The position numbers and the translations under genes are program-made. Source: Deltaproteobacteria bacterium HGW-Deltaproteobacteria-6 (lineage in GTDB: Bacteria > Desulfobacterota > Syntrophia > Syntrophales > Smithellaceae). From it: a stretch of 64,000 bases of DNA. The notes below the pieces were generated by a model. That model saw nothing but the letters and a program-made list of their open reading frames with translations. It did no database searches and had not been told where the DNA came from. Each line of letters starts with the position of its first letter. The stretch's first letter is position 1. Shown here piece by piece: positions 4,325 to 57,840 of the stretch. The stretch lies in the NCBI GenBank assembly GCA_002840435.1, contig PHAT01000003.1, positions 124,001 to 188,000 of the forward strand. The letters are read 5' to 3'.

Positions 4325-7303
4325 TTACGTTTCCGAAAGCTTTTCCAGATTCAGTTTGTCCGTCAGAAGCAGGTTCGCTTCCTCCAGTTTTTCCTGCGCT
4401 GAATAAACCGCTACGGCTCTGGACCCGCCGGCTTTTTCAAAATAGCCGGCCAGCGCGTCTCTTACTTTTCGCGGCGTCGCGGAAAATATCTGATCCCGGA
4501 AGGACTGACGCATCTGATCCGTGACACCGATAAAATGCCGCATCAGGGCAACATAACCGCGCCCGGACGGGTCAAGAGGTTTGTCCAGTGCACTAAGCGT
4601 GCTGATGATGGCTTTTTCCATATCGTCGGCGGACATATCAATTTGTGAATAGAATTTCTGCGCTTCCTGAAAGACATTCAAGGTTTCGACGATATGCGGA
4701 TCGCGATAAGACAGAAACGCGAAAATCCCCAGCGTCGTGTCGAAGGAAGACATGCCGCCGTAAGCGCCGCCCTGAACACGGATATATTTGTAAAGGTAGC
4801 TGTTGGAAAGCTCTCTTGCGGCCAGCATCAGGAGAGCGGAAGACGGATCATTGTATGCGGGCGCTGTCATGGCGCGGGCGACATAAGAGACCTGTGTGGG
4901 AACGGCAATGCCCGCATAGACGGGTGTAAGCGGCGGTTTGGCCGACCTGTCCGCGCGCTGGCCCGAGGGCAGTTTGGCAAGCAGCCGGTCAATATGAGTT
5001 TCAACCAGCGTTAAACCATCGGCCCCGGCGGTGACATTGATGGTCAGGTTATTCTTGTGAAAGATGATCGCTTTCAGCTGAGCCAGCTTTTCGCGCAGGT
5101 TCTGTCCGGAAACATCGAAATCGCCCGACTGCTGCTGAACAAATCGCAACTGGGTCCGGCCATGCCATTGTTCATCACGATATGCGGGCAGCGTAAGCCC
5201 TGCTCCCGCCGCCCGTTTGGCAAAGACGTGTCCGGACGGGACAATGGAGGACTGTAGATTATTTTTCCGTTCCGCGAGTAAATCGCGCATTCTTGCTTCC
5301 TGTTCCAGATCGCCTTCACAAAGAATATCGTAAACGGTGTCGAACGCGTCCGGAATGGTGCGATAAAGCGCTTTAAAGGAAAAGATCATTTTCTGCCAGG
5401 TGTCCGTCGCGTCCGCGGAAAAACCGGCGGACAGGTCATAGCCGAATCCCCCCATATTCAGCGCGATGCGTTTGGACATTTCATCATACGTCAAACCCGC
5501 CGCACCCATGCCGGTCATGATTTTACCCAAAAGCGGCAGGTAAAGCTGAAGGTCTTCGGGTACATGAGCAATATCAAAAGCCAGATCGACATAGGCAATG
5601 CCGTTGGTGAACAGGTCGTGCGTAAGTACCGGCACCGACTGAAGGGACTTATACACGGTTGGAATGGTTTCCACTTCTCCGGGAATATCCGCCAGCTGCA
5701 ATTTAGGCAGCGATGCCGCGGCTTCGGGCGAATCGGTGTCGGACTGAAATGCTTTCAACCGCGCTGCCTGCTCGTCGATTTGCCGCAATTGTTCTTTCGA
5801 AAAGCCTTCTTTCAAAGCCGCCATCTTCCGCTTTAACTTTGCATCATTCTTTTGGCTGAAGTCGGGATCCGGTTCCATTACGGCCAGCAGGCGGTGGGGG
5901 TTGTCCACCAGCCACTTTTGGATCATTTTCTGGAAGACCTGCGGATCATCCGTCCAGCGCTTGCGGATGCTTTCAATCATGCGGGAAAAATCAAGGCCGA
6001 TCAGAGGATCGCCGTCATACAGCCAGGTTTGAAACACGTTGCCCATCAGCGTAATGCCATACGGGTAAGAGCCGCGGGAAATTTCCTTGCCGTGAAATTC
6101 GACCTGATGCAGAATGCCTTCCACCAATTCCCTGTCGAATCCTTCGGACACAATCTTTTGCAATGTGTCGTCAATGAGCTTCTCAACTTTCGGGATGTCG
6201 GCGCTTTGCACGTTGCGCAAACCGGCGCAAAACAAAAGCTGCTTCAGATCGGATTCCATCCCGGAAACCGGCGACATATCTTCGCCCAGCCCCGAATCAA
6301 TCAGGGCCTGGCGCAGGGGAGCGGCCGCGCTGCCCACCAGCAGGCCTGAAATAATTTCCAGCATCAGCGCCGTTTCAAAATCTTTGTTTTCCGCCAGCAT
6401 CCAGGCGACGTTGACAATGGCTTTCCCCGTCAGCGGCTCGTCTATGTCCACGGGATAGAATCCGGAAACACGCCTGGGAGCGGTGAAAAAAGGCTGGCTT
6501 TTAATAGACGAATCAACGTCCACCCGGTCAAATCCGGCCAGCATCTCCGATAAAAATTTCAGATGCTCCGCGGTTGGAATATCTCCATAGAGAAAAAAGC
6601 GCGCGTTGGTCGGTGAATAGTATTTCCGGTGAAAGTCCCTGAATTGTTCATACGTCAGTGTGGGAATAACCTCCGGGTCGCCGCCGGAATCCAGAGCGTA
6701 AATGGTGTCGGGATAAAGATTTTCCTGAATGTCTTTATACATCAGGGAATCGGGCGACGAGTAGGCGCCCTTCATTTCATTATAGACAATCCCGGAAATA
6801 ATCAGATCGCTCGTGAGATCGCCAGGCGCGGCAAACTCCAGATGATGACCTTCCTGCAAAAAGGTTTCCCTGAGCATCCGGGGATGTAAAACCAGATCCG
6901 TATAAACGCGGGCAAGATTGAAAAAGTCCGCTTTGATCTGGCTGGCAACCGGATACACGGTTTTATCGGGGTAGGTAAAAGCATTGATGAACGTCTGCAT
7001 GGTGGAGCGCATCAATTCCTTGAACGCGTCCTTAAGCGGATATTTCTCCGAACCCGCCAGCACGGAATGTTCCAGGATGTGGGGCAGACCCGTGGAATCC
7101 GCAGGCGGCGTGCGAAAACCTATCGCGTATAAATTTTCGCGGTCAAAAGCGTGAAGGTGCAGAACTTTCGCGCCGGTTTGGAGATGCTCCATTTCATAAG
7201 CGGTGAGACGCATGGCCGGAATGGCTTCTACTCTTAATACTTTAAAACCTGTGAACAGATCGCCGGCTTGCAGGGTCGGTTCTGGAACATTGGATGACGT
7301 CAT
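4325..7303 (-). CDS. M16C-family zinc metallopeptidase (presequence-protease type)
   Basis: A 992-residue protein with the inverted zinc motif HILEH at residues 75-79 and the downstream conserved block with the third ligand glutamate. This length and the four-domain layout (two active-site and two inactive halves) fit the M16C/PreP group that degrades short unfolded peptides inside a closed chamber. There is no signal peptide, so a cytoplasmic location is likely. It is the last gene of the minus-strand run that begins with the ATP-grasp gene; a 79-bp gap separates it from the DUF3047-OmpA gene. Peptide turnover is family knowledge; its particular substrate is unknown. Confidence 0.9.
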   Translation of the reverse strand: MTSSNVPEPTLQAGDLFTGFKVLRVEAIPAMRLTAYEMEHLQTGAKVLHLHAFDRENLYAIGFRTPPADSTGLPHILEHSVLAGSEKYPLKDAFKELMRSTMQTFINAFTYPDKTVYPVASQIKADFFNLARVYTDLVLHPRMLRETFLQEGHHLEFAAPGDLTSDLIISGIVYNEMKGAYSSPDSLMYKDIQENLYPDTIYALDSGGDPEVIPTLTYEQFRDFHRKYYSPTNARFFLYGDIPTAEHLKFLSEMLAGFDRVDVDSSIKSQPFFTAPRRVSGFYPVDIDEPLTGKAIVNVAWMLAENKDFETALMLEIISGLLVGSAAAPLRQALIDSGLGEDMSPVSGMESDLKQLLFCAGLRNVQSADIPKVEKLIDDTLQKIVSEGFDRELVEGILHQVEFHGKEISRGSYPYGITLMGNVFQTWLYDGDPLIGLDFSRMIESIRKRWTDDPQVFQKMIQKWLVDNPHRLLAVMEPDPDFSQKNDAKLKRKMAALKEGFSKEQLRQIDEQAARLKAFQSDTDSPEAAASLPKLQLADIPGEVETIPTVYKSLQSVPVLTHDLFTNGIAYVDLAFDIAHVPEDLQLYLPLLGKIMTGMGAAGLTYDEMSKRIALNMGGFGYDLSAGFSADATDTWQKMIFSFKALYRTIPDAFDTVYDILCEGDLEQEARMRDLLAERKNNLQSSIVPSGHVFAKRAAGAGLTLPAYRDEQWHGRTQLRFVQQQSGDFDVSGQNLREKLAQLKAIIFHKNNLTINVTAGADGLTLVETHIDRLLAKLPSGQRADRSAKPPLTPVYAGIAVPTQVSYVARAMTAPAYNDPSSALLMLAARELSNSYLYKYIRVQGGAYGGMSSFDTTLGIFAFLSYRDPHIVETLNVFQEAQKFYSQIDMSADDMEKAIISTLSALDKPLDPSGRGYVALMRHFIGVTDQMRQSFRDQIFSATPRKVRDALAGYFEKAGGSRAVAVYSAQEKLEEANLLLTDKLNLEKLSET

Positions 7304-51317: not shown

Positions 51318-52772
51318 TTATTCTTTAATTTTATAACCCTTCTCTTGGAAGAGGCGCAGGCAGGCATCCACCACATCGGCATCATACAGAACACCCTTGT
51401 TCCCGGTTATCTCTTCCAAAGCGGCATCAAGTCCTAATGCCGACCGGTAAGGCCGATGCGTGGCAATGGCCTCCACCACATCGGCTACCGCCAGGATCCG
51501 TGACTCCAGGAGAATGTTGTCATCGGCCAGGGCGTTCGGATATCCGGACTCGTTCATCCGCTCATGATGTTCAAGGACCATGCGGGCAATGGGCCAGGGA
51601 AATTCAATGTCCTTCAGAATGTCATATCCGGACTGAGCGTGGGTCTTGATGAGGTCGAACTCCAGGTCTGTTAATTTTCTCGGCATGCTGAGAATTTCGG
51701 AAGGAACAGAGATTTTTCCAATGTCATGGATGATACCGGCCATCCGGATGCCGTTGATCTGTTCGTCGGAAAGGCCCATCTCTCTGGCAATGGAACGGGC
51801 AAGATCCGCCACGCGGCGTTGATGGCCCGCTGTGTAGGGGTCTTTCGTTTCGACCAGCGAGGCAATTGCCTGAACGGCTCCTCCCAGAGCTTTTCTGAGG
51901 TGATCGACACTCTCTTTCCGGTTAGTGATATCTTCGATAAGTCCTTCCAGATAGAGAAGCTTCCCCCGCTCATCATGAACGGCACGCATGGTCAGATATA
52001 CCCAGATCGTGCGTCCATCCCTTCGGTAGAATTGAAGCCCGTCATTCCTGGCAAAGCCCTGCCGTTCGATACACTCTACGATCTTTGCACGTTCTTTAGA
52101 ATCGACATAGAGTTGACGGGTAACATCGGTTACGCTGTCCATCAGTTCCCCGGGGGAATCGTATCCGAGTATTCGCGCCATAGCCTTGTTGACCATGATG
52201 AATTTCCCGTCGGGTGTTGTCCGGTAAATCCCTTCCTGGGCGTTCTCAAAGATGCTCCGATAATTTTCTTCAGCCTGTAAAAGATTGAACTCCGCCTGCT
52301 TAAGGTCCGTAATGTTCATCAGAGAAGCGATGCTTTTTTTTGTACCCGGTATCAGATCAATGTTTAAGAGGATGTTTTTCAGACTGCCGTCTTTGTGCAC
52401 AATCTTAAACTCATAGCTTTTCTTCGCAAGCCCCGGATCCGCTCTCCGCAACTTGTGGCGGGAGATCATCTCTTCCAGATCATCTTTTTCAATAAATTCC
52501 GTCCACTTTCTTTTCCCTTCTACTTCCTCCCGTGTATACCCGGTCAGACATCCCCATTGATCATTTACCAGGGATATCGTCATATCTTCCTCAATGATCA
52601 GCATGGTGGTCCCTGTTGTTTCAAAAATAGTCTGATAGATGAGTTCGGAAGTCCGAAGGTTTTCCGCCATCCGCCTGTGCTCTGCCTCAGCTGCTTCCAG
52701 CTTCCGGATTCTTTTTTTTAATAAGGTATTTTCTTCGATCAGATCTTGATTTGTCTTGGAAGGATCGTTCAT
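51318..52772 (-). CDS. PAS-PAS-HD-GYP phosphodiesterase-type regulator
   Basis: A 484-residue cytoplasmic protein. A short coiled coil (residues 8-35) leads to two PAS domains (about 40-165 and 170-285; NYRSIFENAQEGIYRTTPDG, YLEGLIEDITNRK), then an HD-GYP domain (about 305-480): HDIGKISVPSEIL, THAQSGYDIL, LEHHERMNESGYPN, ADVVEAIATHRPYR. The variant HHERMNESGYP still matches the HD-GYP core that hydrolyses c-di-GMP. Its partner genes, 87 bp upstream, are the sigma-54 activator and kinase, so it is probably the last gene of that operon. Confidence 0.88.
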   Translation of the reverse strand: MNDPSKTNQDLIEENTLLKKRIRKLEAAEAEHRRMAENLRTSELIYQTIFETTGTTMLIIEEDMTISLVNDQWGCLTGYTREEVEGKRKWTEFIEKDDLEEMISRHKLRRADPGLAKKSYEFKIVHKDGSLKNILLNIDLIPGTKKSIASLMNITDLKQAEFNLLQAEENYRSIFENAQEGIYRTTPDGKFIMVNKAMARILGYDSPGELMDSVTDVTRQLYVDSKERAKIVECIERQGFARNDGLQFYRRDGRTIWVYLTMRAVHDERGKLLYLEGLIEDITNRKESVDHLRKALGGAVQAIASLVETKDPYTAGHQRRVADLARSIAREMGLSDEQINGIRMAGIIHDIGKISVPSEILSMPRKLTDLEFDLIKTHAQSGYDILKDIEFPWPIARMVLEHHERMNESGYPNALADDNILLESRILAVADVVEAIATHRPYRSALGLDAALEEITGNKGVLYDADVVDACLRLFQEKGYKIKE

Positions 52773-52859: not shown

Positions 52860-54230
52860 CTAGTTCTTCAGGTCGTACTTCTTCAGCTTATATCTCAGCA
52901 TTCTTTCCGACATACCCAGAATTTCAGCGGCTTTGGTCTGGTTATCAGCCGCCTTGATCATGGCCTCGCCGATCAGATGCTTTTCAAGATCTTCAAGCGA
53001 GTTCCGAAGGGATCCTGACCCTTTTTTGTCCGAAACATCCGTGAAAGAATCATTTTTAAAAGGAAGGTCGTTCACGGTGATATAGTCGTCCCGGGCAATG
53101 ACAACAGCCCGTTCCATAATATTAACCAGTTCCCGCACATTGCCCGGATAGTCGTATTTCAGGAGCAAATCCCTTGCTTCAGCAGTCATACCCCGGATAT
53201 TTTTTGCGTTTTCTCTGGCAAATTTTTCCATAAAATGCTCGACCAGCGCGGGCAGATCTTCTTTTCTCTCCCTCAGCGGCGGAAGCGACATCGTCACGAC
53301 TTTCAGCCGGTAAAAAAGGTCCTCTCTGAACGCCCCTTCTTTAACCCGGCCCTCTAAATCGCGATTGGTGGCGCTGATGATGCGGACATCGACAGAAATG
53401 CTGGCGTTACTGCCGAGACGAGTAATTTCCCGCTCCTGCAGAAAGCGCAATAATTTAACCTGAATGCCGGGGCTCAGTTCGCCGATTTCATCAAGAAAAA
53501 GTGTGCCGCCGTCCGCGTCTTCAAAACGCCCGATGCGGCGGGAGCTTGCGCCGGTATAGGCTCCTTTCTCATGGCCGAATAATTCACTCTCCAGCAAATT
53601 TTCCTGCAGAGCGCCGCAGTTCACCACCACAATGGGTCTGTGCACCCGCGGGCTCAATTGATGAATCAGACGCGCCAGGAGTTCCTTTCCCGTACCGCTT
53701 TCACCCTGAATCAGCACGGATGCCCTGCTGGGCGCGACCCGGCTGGCCATGTTGATCAACTCTACCATCTGAGCGCTTTTATAAATGATCTTTTCCGCAG
53801 TTATGCCTTGTTTTTCCAGCTGCTGTTTCAAGAGTTCATTTTCCCGGATGAGACCGCGGCGTTCCGCCACCCGATCCACCAGGATCAGCAGTTCTTCCAG
53901 TTCGATGGGTTTCGTGATGTAGTCAATGGCGCCGACTTTGATGGCTTCCACAGCCGTTTCAATGGTGCCGTAAGCGGTAATGATGGCGACATCGATTTCC
54001 TGGTTGATCCTCTTCATTTCCTTGAGCACTTCCATGCCGTCCATACCGGGCATTTTGTAATCCAGGAGAATCAAATCAAAATGCTTATTGGAAACCGTTT
54101 TGATCGCGGTTTCACCATTTTCCGCTTCCAGGACCCTGTGACCTTCGGAAATCAGAAAATCGCGCAGCATCTCCCGCTGCGAACGGCCGTCTTCCACTAT
54201 CAGAATATCTAATTTCTGCATTCGTAACAT
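52860..54230 (-). CDS. Sigma-54-dependent response regulator (NtrC/AtoC family)
   Basis: A 456-residue enhancer-binding protein. The N-terminal receiver has phospho-acceptor Asp in LILLDYKMPGMDG (about residue 56). The AAA+ core has Walker A GESGTGKE (about 175), the sigma-54-contacting loop GAYTGA (usual GAFTGA with Tyr for Phe) and Walker B GGTLFLDEIGEL. The C-terminal Fis-type helix-turn-helix is AAEILGMSERMLRYKLKKYDL (read in parts). It lies 8 bp after the kinase gene and should activate sigma-54 promoters, the nearest being at 56319 upstream of the RNA candidate. Targets are otherwise unknown. Confidence 0.93.
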   Translation of the reverse strand: MLRMQKLDILIVEDGRSQREMLRDFLISEGHRVLEAENGETAIKTVSNKHFDLILLDYKMPGMDGMEVLKEMKRINQEIDVAIITAYGTIETAVEAIKVGAIDYITKPIELEELLILVDRVAERRGLIRENELLKQQLEKQGITAEKIIYKSAQMVELINMASRVAPSRASVLIQGESGTGKELLARLIHQLSPRVHRPIVVVNCGALQENLLESELFGHEKGAYTGASSRRIGRFEDADGGTLFLDEIGELSPGIQVKLLRFLQEREITRLGSNASISVDVRIISATNRDLEGRVKEGAFREDLFYRLKVVTMSLPPLRERKEDLPALVEHFMEKFARENAKNIRGMTAEARDLLLKYDYPGNVRELVNIMERAVVIARDDYITVNDLPFKNDSFTDVSDKKGSGSLRNSLEDLEKHLIGEAMIKAADNQTKAAEILGMSERMLRYKLKKYDLKN

Positions 54231-54238
54231 CCTTGCTG

Positions 54239-56023
54239 TCAGGCTTTTTCGCTTATTTTTTCGCTCGGCAAAATGATTTCAAAAGTTGTCCCTTCGCCAT
54301 GACGGCTGATGACGCGGATATCTCCGCCGTGGCCGCGGATAATCTCCGTTGCCAGCGGGATGCCCAGTCCCAGGCCTTTTTCCTTGGTGGTGTATTCCGG
54401 GCTGAAAATTTTTTCAATTTCTTCCGCTGTCATGCCGCAGCCGGTATCAGAGATGCTCACCAAAATATAATTCTTGCTTTCTTTATCTACCGTGATGGTG
54501 ATGGTGCCTTGATCCGTGATGGACTCCATGGCATTCTTGATAAAGTTCAGAAATGCCTGCTGAAGTTTGTTAATATCCATGGGAATAACGGCAGGGGAGA
54601 GCCGCCATCTTGTCTCCAGCGTGATGCCCCGAGCCCTGGCCTCTTCCGAAATCAAACTGACAATTTTTTGAAGAACTTCCGTTACGGAAAAATCACTCAA
54701 CTCCAACCTTCTGCTTTTGGAAAAGGAAAGAAACTCTTCGATAATCCCGTTGAGCCGCCGGATTTCATCGCGGATCACGCCGGAAAGATTTTGAAATTCA
54801 CGGGCCTTCAGGTCGTCCGCGGGAATGTAATCTCTTTTTAGCCGCTGGGTCGCCATACTGATGGCATTCAGCGGATTGCGGATTTCGTGGGCCACGCCCG
54901 CGGCCAGCTGGCCCAGAGAAGAAAGGCGTTCGGCTTTTTCCAGACGGCGTTCCATGTCAATAATGCCGGCCAGGTGACGGTTCTGATCGTGATAGAGCAG
55001 CCACATGGATAAGAGGGCAATGACTACCACAAGCAGCATGAAAACAAAAATGTTCTGCCGGTTTTCAGCGATAATTTTGTCCATGGAACCCCGTTCCAGG
55101 CCGATGCGGACGAGGCCTACCACTTTTTTATCCAACGTAAAGGGAGCGGCCATATCCAGTATCTTACTGTCCTGCGCGTCGACTTTTCTGCTGATAATTT
55201 TTATTTTTCCCTGCAGAATTTCTTTGTAATTAAAATCTTTACTGCTCAATCCGGGAGCGGGTTTGCCCGCAGTGCTTAAAAGCTTCTGCTGGCTGTTAAA
55301 GATTTGCATGTAGGTGATGCCGTGTCCTTCGCCCATTTTACTGATGGCTCTATCCACGGCAACTTTGATGCTCCAGTATTTTAGTCCTTCTTTATCCAGG
55401 TTGATGACAACGGCTCCGCTTCCGTCCTTGCGCCGCAAGCCGACGTAACCGATTCCCTGCTTGATGCGAATTTTCTCCAGCAACTCAATGGTGGTTGCTT
55501 TGCGTCCGCCGTTGGACAGATCGCTTTCGGTCAGCATACTGGTTGTCAGCGGGTTGCTTTGATAAATTGCGTTGCCGTCCCGATTGAGAACGGCCACGTA
55601 CCAGAAATTGTTATCAGCCGCAAACTTATGAAGAGTGGCGTTGCTGATTAATTTATTTTTCCATTGCTCATCAATTTTCTGTCCCAGCGCAGTGATCGCT
55701 TCGATAACCAGTTTTTTAGAATAATCCGCTTCTTCCTGCCTGGCTGTTTTTGCCTGAGTCGGGCTTTTCCCCGGCATGGCGACAATGCTTTTGAGATTAT
55801 CTTCCGTCAGGCGTTGCAAAACGCTGATGGTGCTCAAGGCCTGATCTTCCATGAATCCGACCAGATTGGTTTCACTGCGGCGGATATCCAGAAAACCCAT
55901 AATGAGAATCAGGCCGACCAGAACAGCTGAAACAATGCCAACGGCCAGAGGTTGAATAAAGCTTCCGTTGTATTTACGGACTCCACGTCTTACAATGGTT
56001 TCTTTTTTTCTGAAAAAGATCAT
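54239..56023 (-). CDS. Sensor histidine kinase with periplasmic Cache-like domain
   Basis: A 594-residue membrane kinase. Span 1 is at about residues 27-47 and span 2 at about 324-346 (NIFVFMLLVVVIALLSMWLLY, read in parts). Between them lies a 275-residue periplasmic sensor with two PAS/Cache-like blocks (WYVAVLNRDGNAIYQSNP; GIGYVGLRRKDGSGAVVINLDKEG). After a short linker comes HisKA (AAGVAHEIRNPLNAI, His near 380) and the HATPase (VSISDTGCGMTAEEIEKIF, GLGLGIPLA). First gene of the kinase-activator-HD-GYP run, and divergent from the sRNA candidate. Ligand unknown. Confidence 0.92.
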   Translation of the reverse strand: MIFFRKKETIVRRGVRKYNGSFIQPLAVGIVSAVLVGLILIMGFLDIRRSETNLVGFMEDQALSTISVLQRLTEDNLKSIVAMPGKSPTQAKTARQEEADYSKKLVIEAITALGQKIDEQWKNKLISNATLHKFAADNNFWYVAVLNRDGNAIYQSNPLTTSMLTESDLSNGGRKATTIELLEKIRIKQGIGYVGLRRKDGSGAVVINLDKEGLKYWSIKVAVDRAISKMGEGHGITYMQIFNSQQKLLSTAGKPAPGLSSKDFNYKEILQGKIKIISRKVDAQDSKILDMAAPFTLDKKVVGLVRIGLERGSMDKIIAENRQNIFVFMLLVVVIALLSMWLLYHDQNRHLAGIIDMERRLEKAERLSSLGQLAAGVAHEIRNPLNAISMATQRLKRDYIPADDLKAREFQNLSGVIRDEIRRLNGIIEEFLSFSKSRRLELSDFSVTEVLQKIVSLISEEARARGITLETRWRLSPAVIPMDINKLQQAFLNFIKNAMESITDQGTITITVDKESKNYILVSISDTGCGMTAEEIEKIFSPEYTTKEKGLGLGIPLATEIIRGHGGDIRVISRHGEGTTFEIILPSEKISEKA

Positions 56024-56134
56024 GATATCCTTATTTTACACAACATGATGCGCGCTTTTATATTTTTTGTTTTGCTGGTCATTTTAAGCTTTTCATGAGA
56101 AAAGTCAACGATAAACACCAGACAGCCCGACATT

Positions 56135-56154
56135 TTTGTCGAAAAGTGGACAAA
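56135..56154. promoter_or_regulatory. Putative activator binding dyad upstream of the sigma-54 promoter
   Basis: TTTGTC at 56135-56140 and GACAAA at 56149-56154 form an inverted repeat with an 8-base centre. An overlapping CGACA-TTTT-TGTCG lies at 56128-56141. The dyad centre is about 176 bp upstream of the -24 element at 56320, a usual distance for a sigma-54 enhancer. It also lies 112 bp upstream of the kinase start. Confidence 0.5.
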
Positions 56155-56318
56155 TATTGGCAATTTTGTATCTGTTTGTTATTATTTATTTATTTTTTGT
56201 TAGCTGAAAGTTCGTCCGACATTTCTTGCCAAACATTTACTTCTGCAAAGCAAGAGGCAAAAAGCATTAATTTAGAAAATTTGTTTAATATCAATTACTT
56301 ATATTTTAACGGCTATTG

Positions 56319-56335
56319 TGGCACAATATCTGCTT
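56319..56335 (+). promoter_or_regulatory. Sigma-54 (-24/-12) promoter
   Basis: TGGCAC-AATAT-CTGCT: GG at 56320-56321 and GC at 56332-56333 are exactly 10 bases apart, and the -24 box TGGCAC is perfect. The expected start is near 56345. The nearest plus-strand coding gene is over 3 kb away, so the promoter points into the RNA candidate. Confidence 0.7.
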
Positions 56336-56344
56336 AGACATAAG

Positions 56345-56477
56345 ACAGAAATAGAAGATATTAAGTGTCGACTAAAAATTACGGGCATGATTAGCCGACA
56401 GCAAAATAAACCAAGGAAGGCATCAGCCTTCACTCTTCTCTCCTCGGGAGGCTCCTAACCAGGCCTCCCTTTTTTTT
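56345..56477 (+). ncRNA. Candidate small RNA, about 133 nt, sigma-54 controlled
   Basis: Three stems are visible. (1) 56366-56400: TGTCG and CTAA pair with TTAG and CGACA around a 15-base loop with one mismatch. (2) 56416-56431: GAAGGC-ATCA-GCCTTC. (3) 56446-56477: GGGAGGC pairs with GCCTCCC and is followed by eight T. Between (2) and (3) is an unpaired CTCTTCTCTCCTC (56433-56445) complementary to Shine-Dalgarno sequences, a typical pairing region. The promoter at 56319 and the lack of a plus-strand gene support an RNA rather than an mRNA end. A 23-codon ORF (ATG 56386) runs into the terminator but has no ribosome-binding site. Confidence 0.68.
56446..56477 (+). terminator. Terminator of the small RNA candidate
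   Basis: Seven-base stem GGGAGGC/GCCTCCC with a 10-base loop and eight T. Only the plus strand has the T-run, and no plus-strand gene precedes it. It abuts the stop of the converging rarA gene. Confidence 0.85.
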
Positions 56478-56478
56478 G

Positions 56479-57840
56479 TCATTTTTTCACTCCTTTATCT
56501 TTCGAGTCATTTTTCAGGCGCCGCCAGGCATTGACTCTTTCCTTAATGGTCTTTTCAAAACCGGCATCCGTCGGCTGATAAAGTATCTTTCCTTGAAGTT
56601 TTTCCGGCAGGTACTCCTGCGCAACAAAAGCATCCTGATAATCGTGGGCGTATTTGTAATCCTTGCCGTAATCCAGCTCTTTCATCAACCTGGTCGGCGC
56701 ATTGCGGATATGCAGCGGCACAGGAAGGTAACCGGTCTTGTTGATCAGCTCTTTGGCCCGACCATAGCCGACATACAGAGCATTGCTTTTGGGCGCTGTC
56801 GCCAGATAGACGGCCGCCTGCGCCAAGGCCAGTTCGCCTTCCGGCAGGCCGATGAAATGAAAAGCCTGTTGGGCGGCTATTGTCAGTAGAAGAGCATGAG
56901 GATCGGCATTGCCGATATCTTCGGAAGCAAAGCGCACCATACGGCGCAGAATATACTGCGGGTCTTCCCCGGCAGTAAGCATGCGCCCCAGCCAGTAAAG
57001 TGTTGCGTCCGGGTCTGAGCCGCGCATGCTTTTGTGAAAGGCCGAGATCAGGTTATAATGCTCTTCGCCGTCCTTATCATACAAAAGGGCCTTTTTCAGG
57101 AGGGCTTCCTCCGCGGATTTCGCCGTGATCACCCGTTCCTCTGCAGGCAGCGACTGAATCATGGAGGCCACCGCCTCCAGATTGTTGAGCGTACTGCGGG
57201 CATCGCCGTCGGAAAGGCGGACAATAAAACGGATCGCCTCATCATCAGCCGAGATGGTGAATCTGCCCAGGCCTCTTTGCTGATCGGTCAAGGCCCGCTT
57301 CAGGATGGCAATCAGATCTTCTTCCGTAAACTGCTTGAGCAGCATCACGCGCGTCCGGGACAACAGGGGCGCGATAACTTCAAAGGAAGGATTTTCCGTG
57401 GTTGCGCCAATCAGGGTGATAAGCCCGCTTTCCACGTGGGGGAGAAAGGCGTCCTGCTGGGCTTTGTTGAAGCGATGGATTTCATCGACAAACAGAATGG
57501 TTTTTTGCTTTTTGGCTTCCCAGAGCTCCCGCGCATCGTCAATGACGGAGCGGATTTCCTTCACACCGGAGAGGACCGCTGAAAAACTGACAAAATTTGC
57601 CTTGGTTTCATTGGCCAGGATTCGCGCCAGGGTTGTTTTGCCTGCACCCGGCGGCCCCCAGAAAATCATTGAGAAAAGTTTATCTTCCGCAATGGCGCGC
57701 CGAAGCAGGGTTCCTTCGCCTATGAGGTGCGGCTGGCCGATGTAGTCGGCAAGCTTCTGCGGCCTCATTCTTTCAGCCAGCGGCGCCGTTTCCAGAGCGT
57801 CGCCTTCTGTCCCCAGGCTGAACAAATCCAGATTCTTCAT
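56479..57840 (-). CDS. rarA: RarA/MgsA replication-associated recombination ATPase
   Basis: A 453-residue AAA+ clamp-loader-like protein acting at stalled replication forks. Walker A GPPGAGKTT (about residue 62), Walker B ILFVDEIHRFNKAQQDA (about 113), sensor I IGATTENPSFEV and sensor II DGDARSTLNNLEA are intact; the C-terminal MgsA domain (LYWLGRMLTAGEDPQYILRRMVRFASEDIG, read in parts) is present. It overlaps the small Cys protein gene by 4 bp. Confidence 0.95.
   Translation of the reverse strand: MKNLDLFSLGTEGDALETAPLAERMRPQKLADYIGQPHLIGEGTLLRRAIAEDKLFSMIFWGPPGAGKTTLARILANETKANFVSFSAVLSGVKEIRSVIDDARELWEAKKQKTILFVDEIHRFNKAQQDAFLPHVESGLITLIGATTENPSFEVIAPLLSRTRVMLLKQFTEEDLIAILKRALTDQQRGLGRFTISADDEAIRFIVRLSDGDARSTLNNLEAVASMIQSLPAEERVITAKSAEEALLKKALLYDKDGEEHYNLISAFHKSMRGSDPDATLYWLGRMLTAGEDPQYILRRMVRFASEDIGNADPHALLLTIAAQQAFHFIGLPEGELALAQAAVYLATAPKSNALYVGYGRAKELINKTGYLPVPLHIRNAPTRLMKELDYGKDYKYAHDYQDAFVAQEYLPEKLQGKILYQPTDAGFEKTIKERVNAWRRLKNDSKDKGVKK

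Follow-up and report, generated by a model that had tools for sequence, protein, structure and literature searches.

In enterobacteria, the sigma-54-dependent small RNA GlmY is controlled by a nearby kinase/NtrC-type pair, GlrKR, and in Pseudomonas the NtrC-type regulator of CbrAB drives the adjacent sigma-54 gene of the small RNA CrcZ. CrcZ and RsmY/Z titrate their proteins. One qrr copy of the Qrr/LuxO system adjoins the regulator gene, and Rfam holds Qrr. Desulfovibrio belongs, in older usage, to the same phylum as the Syntrophales, bacteria that are central to methanogenic fatty-acid and alkane breakdown. According to the accessible part of the report on Vibrio (PMC2680268), Qrr1–5 are several homologous RNA copies that work with Hfq and stand under one NtrC-type activator, LuxO, which acts on their sigma-54 promoters from upstream sites by looping. 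The Pxr RNA of Myxococcus, as far as the available sections of PMC5684412 describe it, has three stem-loops, a sigma-54 promoter, an upstream enhancer region and the PxrK-PxrR genes beside it, in a species (M. xanthus) without hfq. Its direct targets were not established in the portions at hand of PMC5684412, PMC5568312, PMC10217877 and PMC11928866, and paralogs occur in Cystobacter. For DVU0679 of Desulfovibrio vulgaris, a response regulator, the excerpt of PMC3333781 gives an adjacent small RNA of unknown function, Dv_sRNA2, as the mapped target.

Our search of the open-licence literature on Smithella and Syntrophus brought up no description of a small RNA from Syntrophales (subscription journals were mostly outside the search). 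Among the matches listed for sigma-54, two-component systems or noncoding RNA of Syntrophus aciditrophicus, none of which bore the name of that species, there was nothing on the RNA presented here, and neither was there among those listed for sigma-54 small RNAs or deltaproteobacterial small RNAs.

We consider it likely that the RNA represents a new family of sigma-54-dependent, trans-acting small RNAs, switched by a phosphorelay and acting by base pairing; its transcription, activation, pairing, targets and signal are inferred. The RNA family, its structure, promoter, dyad and linkage to the kinase were established by comparison of genomes. On the same basis the RNA is new as a family and known as a kind, and its transcription is unproven.

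Layout of the locus

The small RNA gene (positions 56319–56477, plus strand, of the window, i.e., of the whole 64,000-nt stretch of DNA analysed) is divergent from the kinase/regulator operon and convergent with rarA (Table 1). The preliminary description had placed a histidine kinase and an NtrC-type regulator back-to-back with a small RNA, and the Pfam assignments bore this out, the regulator being composed of a receiver, a sigma-54 AAA+ domain and a Fis-type HTH. The GG-N10-GC box, described as perfect, is so: GG occupies 56320–56321 and GC 56332–56333, with exactly 10 nt between them. It also holds that no plus-strand gene explains the terminator, as rarA ends on the minus strand at 56479 and the T tract serves the plus strand. 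The sole listed plus-strand ORF just upstream (56095–56337, 80 aa) stops before the predicted start at ~ 56345. A PAS-PAS-HD domain protein is encoded directly 3′ of the regulator gene (51318–52772, minus strand).

Table 1. Positions of the features of the small RNA locus within the window.
Feature	Positions	Strand	Remarks
NtrC-type response regulator	52860–54230	−	Pfam PF00072, PF00158, PF02954; presumed activator
Membrane sensor histidine kinase	54239–56023	−	Two hydrophobic segments, HisKA, HATPase
Sigma-70-like promoter of the kinase operon, TTGACT-16-TAAAAT	56081–56108	−	
Distal enhancer dyad CCGACATTTTTGTCGA	56127–56142		Presumed regulator site; conserved core CGACA-N4-TGTCG
Proximal weaker site CCGACATTTCTTGCC	56216–56230		Kept in genus alignment
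IHF-like site TATCAATTACTTA	56289–56301	+	Between enhancer and promoter; from sequence
Sigma-54 promoter TGGCAC-N6-TGC (GG-N10-GC), TGGCACAATATCTGC	56319–56333	+	From sequence
Small RNA gene	56345–56477	+	Start predicted from promoter; conserved order-wide; no Rfam match
Stem-loop 1	56366–56400	+	10-position helix (one A-C mismatch here); loop ACGGGCAUG at 56381–56389
Stem-loop 2	56416–56431	+	Missing in f10 sequences aligned
CU-rich linker ACUCUUCUCUCCUC	56432–56445	+	Anti-Shine-Dalgarno-like
Intrinsic terminator	56446–56477	+	Stem 56446–56469, then eight T at 56470–56477
rarA/mgsA	56479–57840	−	PF12002; convergent neighbour, no overlap with the RNA

The kinase has hydrophobic segments at about residues 20–49 and 317–346. 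For its extracytoplasmic part of ~ 270 aa, structure prediction gave two PAS/Cache-like domains at moderate confidence (mean pLDDT 77.4, pTM 0.65). The best PDB matches of the model were sensor kinases and chemoreceptors (e.g., WalK, KinD, DctB and PctD). Since their TM-scores were low, the sensor could be assigned to a general fold class only; the model suggests a PAS/Cache-like fold. The best NCBIfam match of the regulator was AtoC (496.5 bits, under the 714 cut-off), and the protein stayed under the cut-offs for LuxO, GlrR, ZraR, AtoC and NtrC. Both boxes of the sigma-70-like promoter of the kinase operon are largely kept in the genus, as read by eye from the alignment.

Comparison with described systems

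The preliminary description had likened the layout to that of qrr1/luxO. As an architecture the likeness stands, whereas kinship does not; sequence and regulator differ. As with Qrr/LuxO, there is a sigma-54 promoter, and in some genomes several copies of the Syntrophales RNA share activator sites; the extra copies with the same dyad recall LuxO-qrr1–5. Unlike LuxO, the Syntrophales regulator reached 357 bits against the NCBIfam LuxO cut-off of 800, and, unlike in the Qrr system, the kinase and the regulator lie in one operon and Hfq was not detected in the genome of this bacterium (own genome). GlmY shares the sigma-54 promoter and the kinase/NtrC-type pair encoded nearby, but GlmY/GlmZ differ in that the Syntrophales RNA has no Rfam match and its regulator scored 359 bits against the GlrR cut-off of 763. 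CrcZ differs likewise in the absence of an Rfam match, and no repeated CA/A-rich motifs were seen by eye. With Rfam 15, no family reached its gathering score in the window, and the best match in 56000–56500 at E ≤ 10 was sRNA71, with 22.6 bits against a cut-off of 50. The earlier statement that the RNA is neither a qrr nor a glmY by sequence is consistent with this, and membership in a known family (Qrr, GlmY, CrcZ) was rejected.

Pxr resembles the Syntrophales RNA in its three stem-loops, sigma-54 promoter and adjacent genes for a histidine kinase and an NtrC-type regulator; pxr, however, lies downstream of pxrR, whereas the Syntrophales RNA is divergent from the kinase. For the parts of Pxr that could be compared, homology was rejected, as nhmmer reported nothing and the local score was 14.0 against a shuffled mean of 14.35. 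The comparison used primer and probe pieces found in the accessible text of PMC5568312, covering positions 13 to 111 with a gap, and none of the five loop or linker motifs tested occurred in these pieces. Dv_sRNA2 differs in being downstream of its regulator gene, according to the excerpt of PMC3333781. The phylum sample described below gave no hit above 38 bits outside the order, and the presence of D. vulgaris in that sample was not confirmed.

Distribution in Syntrophales

Among 59 relatives searched with a blastn-type method, strong matches were confined to the same genus and family, the best E in any other family being 0.003. The model R1, derived from the first 30 aligned loci, detected the RNA in further families of Syntrophales (85 of the 155 genomes with E ≤ 0.1, weak hits included), and R2, built from 67 sequences, found it in 104 of the 155 at E ≤ 0.01; with the R2 covariance model, 95/155 genomes scored at least 39 bits. 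The 155 genomes constitute the order sample, and the class-level sample had the same number. Hits weaker than 39 bits include look-alikes (L152, L164) that resemble the terminator only and were dropped as copies, and also at least one true copy, L162, which scored 36.9 bits and adjoins the kinase.

In the phylum sample of 395 genomes, 35 had a match at E ≤ 0.01, 12 of them in Syntrophales and 23 outside, the latter with hits of 38 bits at most. The best three outside hits (L175, L176, L177; 33–38 bits) have neither promoter nor stem-loop 1 and were put down to chance; the remaining ones, all weaker, were taken as chance without inspection. A gammaproteobacterial pattern hit (L070) was dropped at 14.4 bits. 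The named contigs with the exact core (45 loci before this removal) are from Smithella, which belongs to Syntrophales, from Smithellaceae and Syntrophaceae, and otherwise from deltaproteobacteria. The family proposed earlier for Desulfobacterota is new, having no Rfam match, but it was found in Syntrophales only and not across the phylum. A covariance search in relatives had been suggested as a check; seen from the RNA side, the stems and the -24/-12 box were indeed kept beside the kinase/activator genes. The conservation of the element with its GG-N10-GC box, in 30/30 loci and then order-wide, indicates that it is real beyond chance.

Linkage was counted over the 93 copies with at least 260 nt of upstream sequence, 84 of them kinase-linked and nine without a kinase. 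Left out were L126 and L137 (too little upstream sequence), L152, L164 and L175–L177 (no core), and repeat fetches of the same places. The kinase was divergent within 2.7 kb in 83 of the 93 copies and further off in one (L147). Among the linked copies, the regulator was seen on the same side in 42/84, because many loci are too short to reach it, and rarA was at most 2.2 kb from the RNA in 70/84, some of the remaining loci being truncated at contig ends. Of the first 30 aligned loci, all have the kinase beside the RNA and 28 have rarA, the exceptions being L016, where the locus ends, and L034. Two genomes contributed two linked rows each, G015 (L013, L041) and G018 (L016, L082), which may reflect strain mixture in the assemblies.

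Structure of the RNA

The three hairpins of the preliminary description are present, and the combination of promoter, stem-loop 1 and terminator is retained in nearly every copy. The fold of 56345–56478 has an energy of − 35.9 kcal/mol (z − 2.64), with 2 of 200 shuffles as stable. As for the terminator, the eight T were found as described, while the terminator scan scored 8 pairs instead of a seven-base stem. It ranks first of 22 terminator-like sites in 14 kb; as 17.9 are expected from shuffles, such sites are not rare per se.

In a sequence-only MAFFT alignment of 67 copies the three helices covary, with 18 of 24 pairs changed on both sides (5/10 in stem-loop 1 and 7/8 in the terminator helix). 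In this alignment 89.3% of the cells pair, against 34–56% in slid controls, and none of 500 shuffles reached any of the five measures used. Given no structure, RNAalifold found the terminator and 7 of the 10 helix 1 pairs but missed stem-loop 2. The helix UGUCGACUAA/UUAGCCGACA of family f1 has its counterpart in UAUCGGUUAA/UUGGCCGAUA and similar forms elsewhere. The loop of stem-loop 1 around CGGGC is among the most conserved primary sequence, and its GGG is invariant in the 67 sequences.

In most members of the own genus the linker reads CUCUUCUCUCC, and several further families have CUCCUCCUG. It had been described as an unpaired CU-rich stretch, which is true in part for the single sequence of the window: UCUCCU is open, whereas the first part can pair with the GAAGA region of the leader. 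Over the 67 sequences, the mean unpaired probability was 0.74 for the loop and 0.69 for the linker, compared to 0.02–0.19 for the helix arms; loop and linker are nevertheless no more open than the other unpaired parts (leader 0.56, A-rich part 0.66, tail 0.67).

Loop, linker and proposed mode of action

We propose that the product would be an RNA of ~ 105–135 nt with its own terminator, acting in trans by pairing with mRNAs via the ACGGGCAUG loop and/or the CU-rich anti-Shine-Dalgarno linker. Such pairing would most likely block translation initiation, in this genome without Hfq. Hfq (PF17209) was not detected in the own genome, which is 99% complete; a control search gave a signal in 5 of 14 known genomes. 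The CU motif is present in 64/84 linked and 5/9 other copies and missing from 20/84 and 4/9, respectively, hence an anti-Shine-Dalgarno action cannot be universal.

The variation and loss of the CU linker also belong to the case for the main rival, in which the RNA is a sponge or decoy and its conserved loop or linker binds a protein or another RNA, not mRNAs. Conservation is higher in stem-loop 1 with its loop than in the linker, a pattern that fits a protein-binding element, and CrcZ is under like sigma-54/NtrC-type control (CbrAB). On the other hand, no repeated ANGGA (CsrA-type) or A-rich (Hfq-type) motif was seen by eye, and the protein that the latter would bind, Hfq, was not detected in the own genome; we regard a decoy as unlikely. 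Base pairing in trans remains the most likely mode of action because of the accessible and conserved loop, the anti-Shine-Dalgarno-like linker, the RNA's own terminator and the existence of several copies in some genomes, and no target has been shown for it.

Target prediction from the linker, as suggested earlier, showed none, and apart from the small RNA gene the own genome has no match to the linker complement with one mismatch or fewer. Over 20 genomes of the genus, the linker complement had 44 matches, 18 of which are the small RNA genes themselves, and the reversed pattern had 30. The start regions of neighbouring genes paired little or no better than did their own reversed sequences, with the linker mis-cut in several rows, including that of the window. 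An exact 13-nt linker complement away from the small RNA gene was observed in one genus member (G013, contig C44, 8235–8247), possibly a target site and possibly chance. The loop complement ATCATGCCCGTAA, with up to one mismatch, occurred 146 times in the 20 genomes (e.g., G000, contig C5, 860761–860773), against 21 for the reversed pattern, and ~ 20 of these matches are the small RNA itself. The reversed pattern is a poor control for this count, and the excess could be due to codon usage or to targets.

Promoter, dyad and presumed activator

The GG-N10-GC box was present in all 30 loci of the family aligned first, where the predicted start lies 10–23 nt before the TCGACT core. A strict sigma-54 promoter was found in 81/84 kinase-linked and 7/9 other copies. 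An alignment of the kinase-small RNA interval from 16 loci revealed the palindrome TCGACATTTTTGTCGA ~ 200 nt before the RNA. A weaker second site, an IHF-like site and then the promoter follow it, and the stretches separating these elements are less conserved. The core of the palindrome, CGACA-N4-TGTCG (ten fixed bases), is perfect in 69 of the 84 linked copies and 7 of the 9 others, compared with 0.02% of 4650 first-order Markov shuffled upstream sequences. The dyad is mostly at − 211 to − 224, and its gap to the promoter is 174–182 nt in 74 of the 80 non-redundant pairs in the fetched loci; of the six other pairs, two (L073, L219) do not involve small RNA promoters. In L013 and L020, both half-sites are changed together (GGACA…TGTCC). 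Sites like the proximal one were seen by eye in several extra copies. The strict IHF consensus was matched in only 21/84 linked and 1/9 other copies, many of them in the own genus.

The dyad is presumably the enhancer of the regulator, an assignment made from position and conservation only, with no binding data. The kinase would sense an extracytoplasmic cue through its Cache-like part and phosphorylate the NtrC-type regulator, which would bind the CGACA-N4-TGTCG dyad ~ 180 bp upstream of the promoter and be carried by DNA looping to the sigma-54 polymerase. In some genomes, the same enhancer may serve additional RNA copies away from the kinase.

The lack of binding data leaves room for a sigma-54 small RNA that answers to another NtrC-type activator, the neighbouring pair merely sharing the intergenic region, and the genome should hold more NtrC-type regulators. 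However, kinase and dyad occur together in many families, the dyad is also found with extra RNA copies in genomes possessing a linked one, and we consider a different activator improbable. With regard to control by the adjacent regulator, the own genome contains 13 sites with up to one mismatch to the 16-nt dyad. Of the ten fetched with flanks, only that of the small RNA has a TGGCAY-N6-TGC promoter, and this is rightly placed; at another (L210), a looser TGGTAT-N6-TGC match lies ~ 400 nt away, with the dyad downstream of it. With up to two mismatches there are 219 sites against 113 for the reversed-pattern control, so other regulator sites are not excluded. The survey fits the RNA as a conserved output of the putative regulator, without showing it to be the only one.

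We would only tentatively extend the proposal to an RNA that is the main or only sigma-54 output of an independently arisen Qrr-like circuit, setting an Hfq-free global translational programme for syntrophic life in much of Syntrophales; this is possible rather than probable. If true, an undescribed recognition loop, ACGGGCAUG, together with an anti-Shine-Dalgarno tail would set such a programme without Hfq. Already under the main proposal, the Syntrophales would join Vibrio with Qrr, myxobacteria with Pxr and others as a lineage whose sigma-54 phosphorelay works by way of an RNA. The conserved kinase-to-RNA circuit offers a handle on how little-studied syntrophs sense their surroundings, and the family is suitable for Rfam.

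A few linked copies depart from the common arrangement. In L158 and L159 (family f4) the kinase, the regulator and a divergent form of the RNA are kept without the strict promoter, the dyad and the CU linker, so that the circuit may have been rewired or may be decaying. L144 lacks a dyad and has GG-N10-GT, and L117 is without the distal dyad.

Extra copies and remaining explanations

The nine copies without a kinase comprise six from family f14 (L165–L170, four genomes), the Syntrophus-like L160 and L163, and L151 from f1. The strict promoter is present in 7/9, the perfect dyad in 7/9 and both in 6/9; L151 has the promoter but no dyad, and L166 and L168 have GG-N10-GT. The upstream DNA available for L163 (381 nt) and L165 (754 nt) is short, and these two may have a kinase out of view; the other seven have at least 2.8 kb. 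One copy was found in the own genome. A probable Syntrophus genome (G084) carries two, at 813,865–813,993 and 1,925,214–1,925,338, both on the plus strand. In family f7 (L150), tandem copies at 5001–5125 and 5961–6085 on the minus strand, 960 nt apart, each have their own dyad and sigma-54 promoter, and one kinase/regulator pair lies beside both. Genomes with several copies behind the same dyad make the comparison with qrr1–5 directly testable.

Two further explanations of the transcript have very little left in their favour. It might encode a small protein, e.g., one starting at the AUG in the loop of stem-loop 1 (MISRQQNK...), which with the next few codons is kept in much of family f1; the codon, however, is ACG in f14 rows and either AUA or GUG in some other rows, the frame and the stop differ after 4–8 codons, the conservation is that of the helix, and the explanation was rejected because the frame that opens with the loop AUG is not preserved (67 rows minus L024). 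Although in this genome the element directly abuts the rarA stop codon, it can hardly be only the 3′ end of something else (a rarA terminator, or intergenic regulatory DNA without a separate RNA), in view of the T tract on the strand opposite rarA, the distance of 1.9 kb to rarA in L161, the nine extra copies without rarA in the fetched DNA and the nearly constant company of promoter, stem-loop 1 and terminator.

An exact 19-nt duplicate of the terminator's 3′ arm and T tract (query 161–179) was observed elsewhere in the own genome (L152; G000, contig C7, 78309–78327), with no promoter or core beside it, and is probably an unrelated terminator. Several other genomes in the genus and family likewise have this 19-nt stretch a second time.
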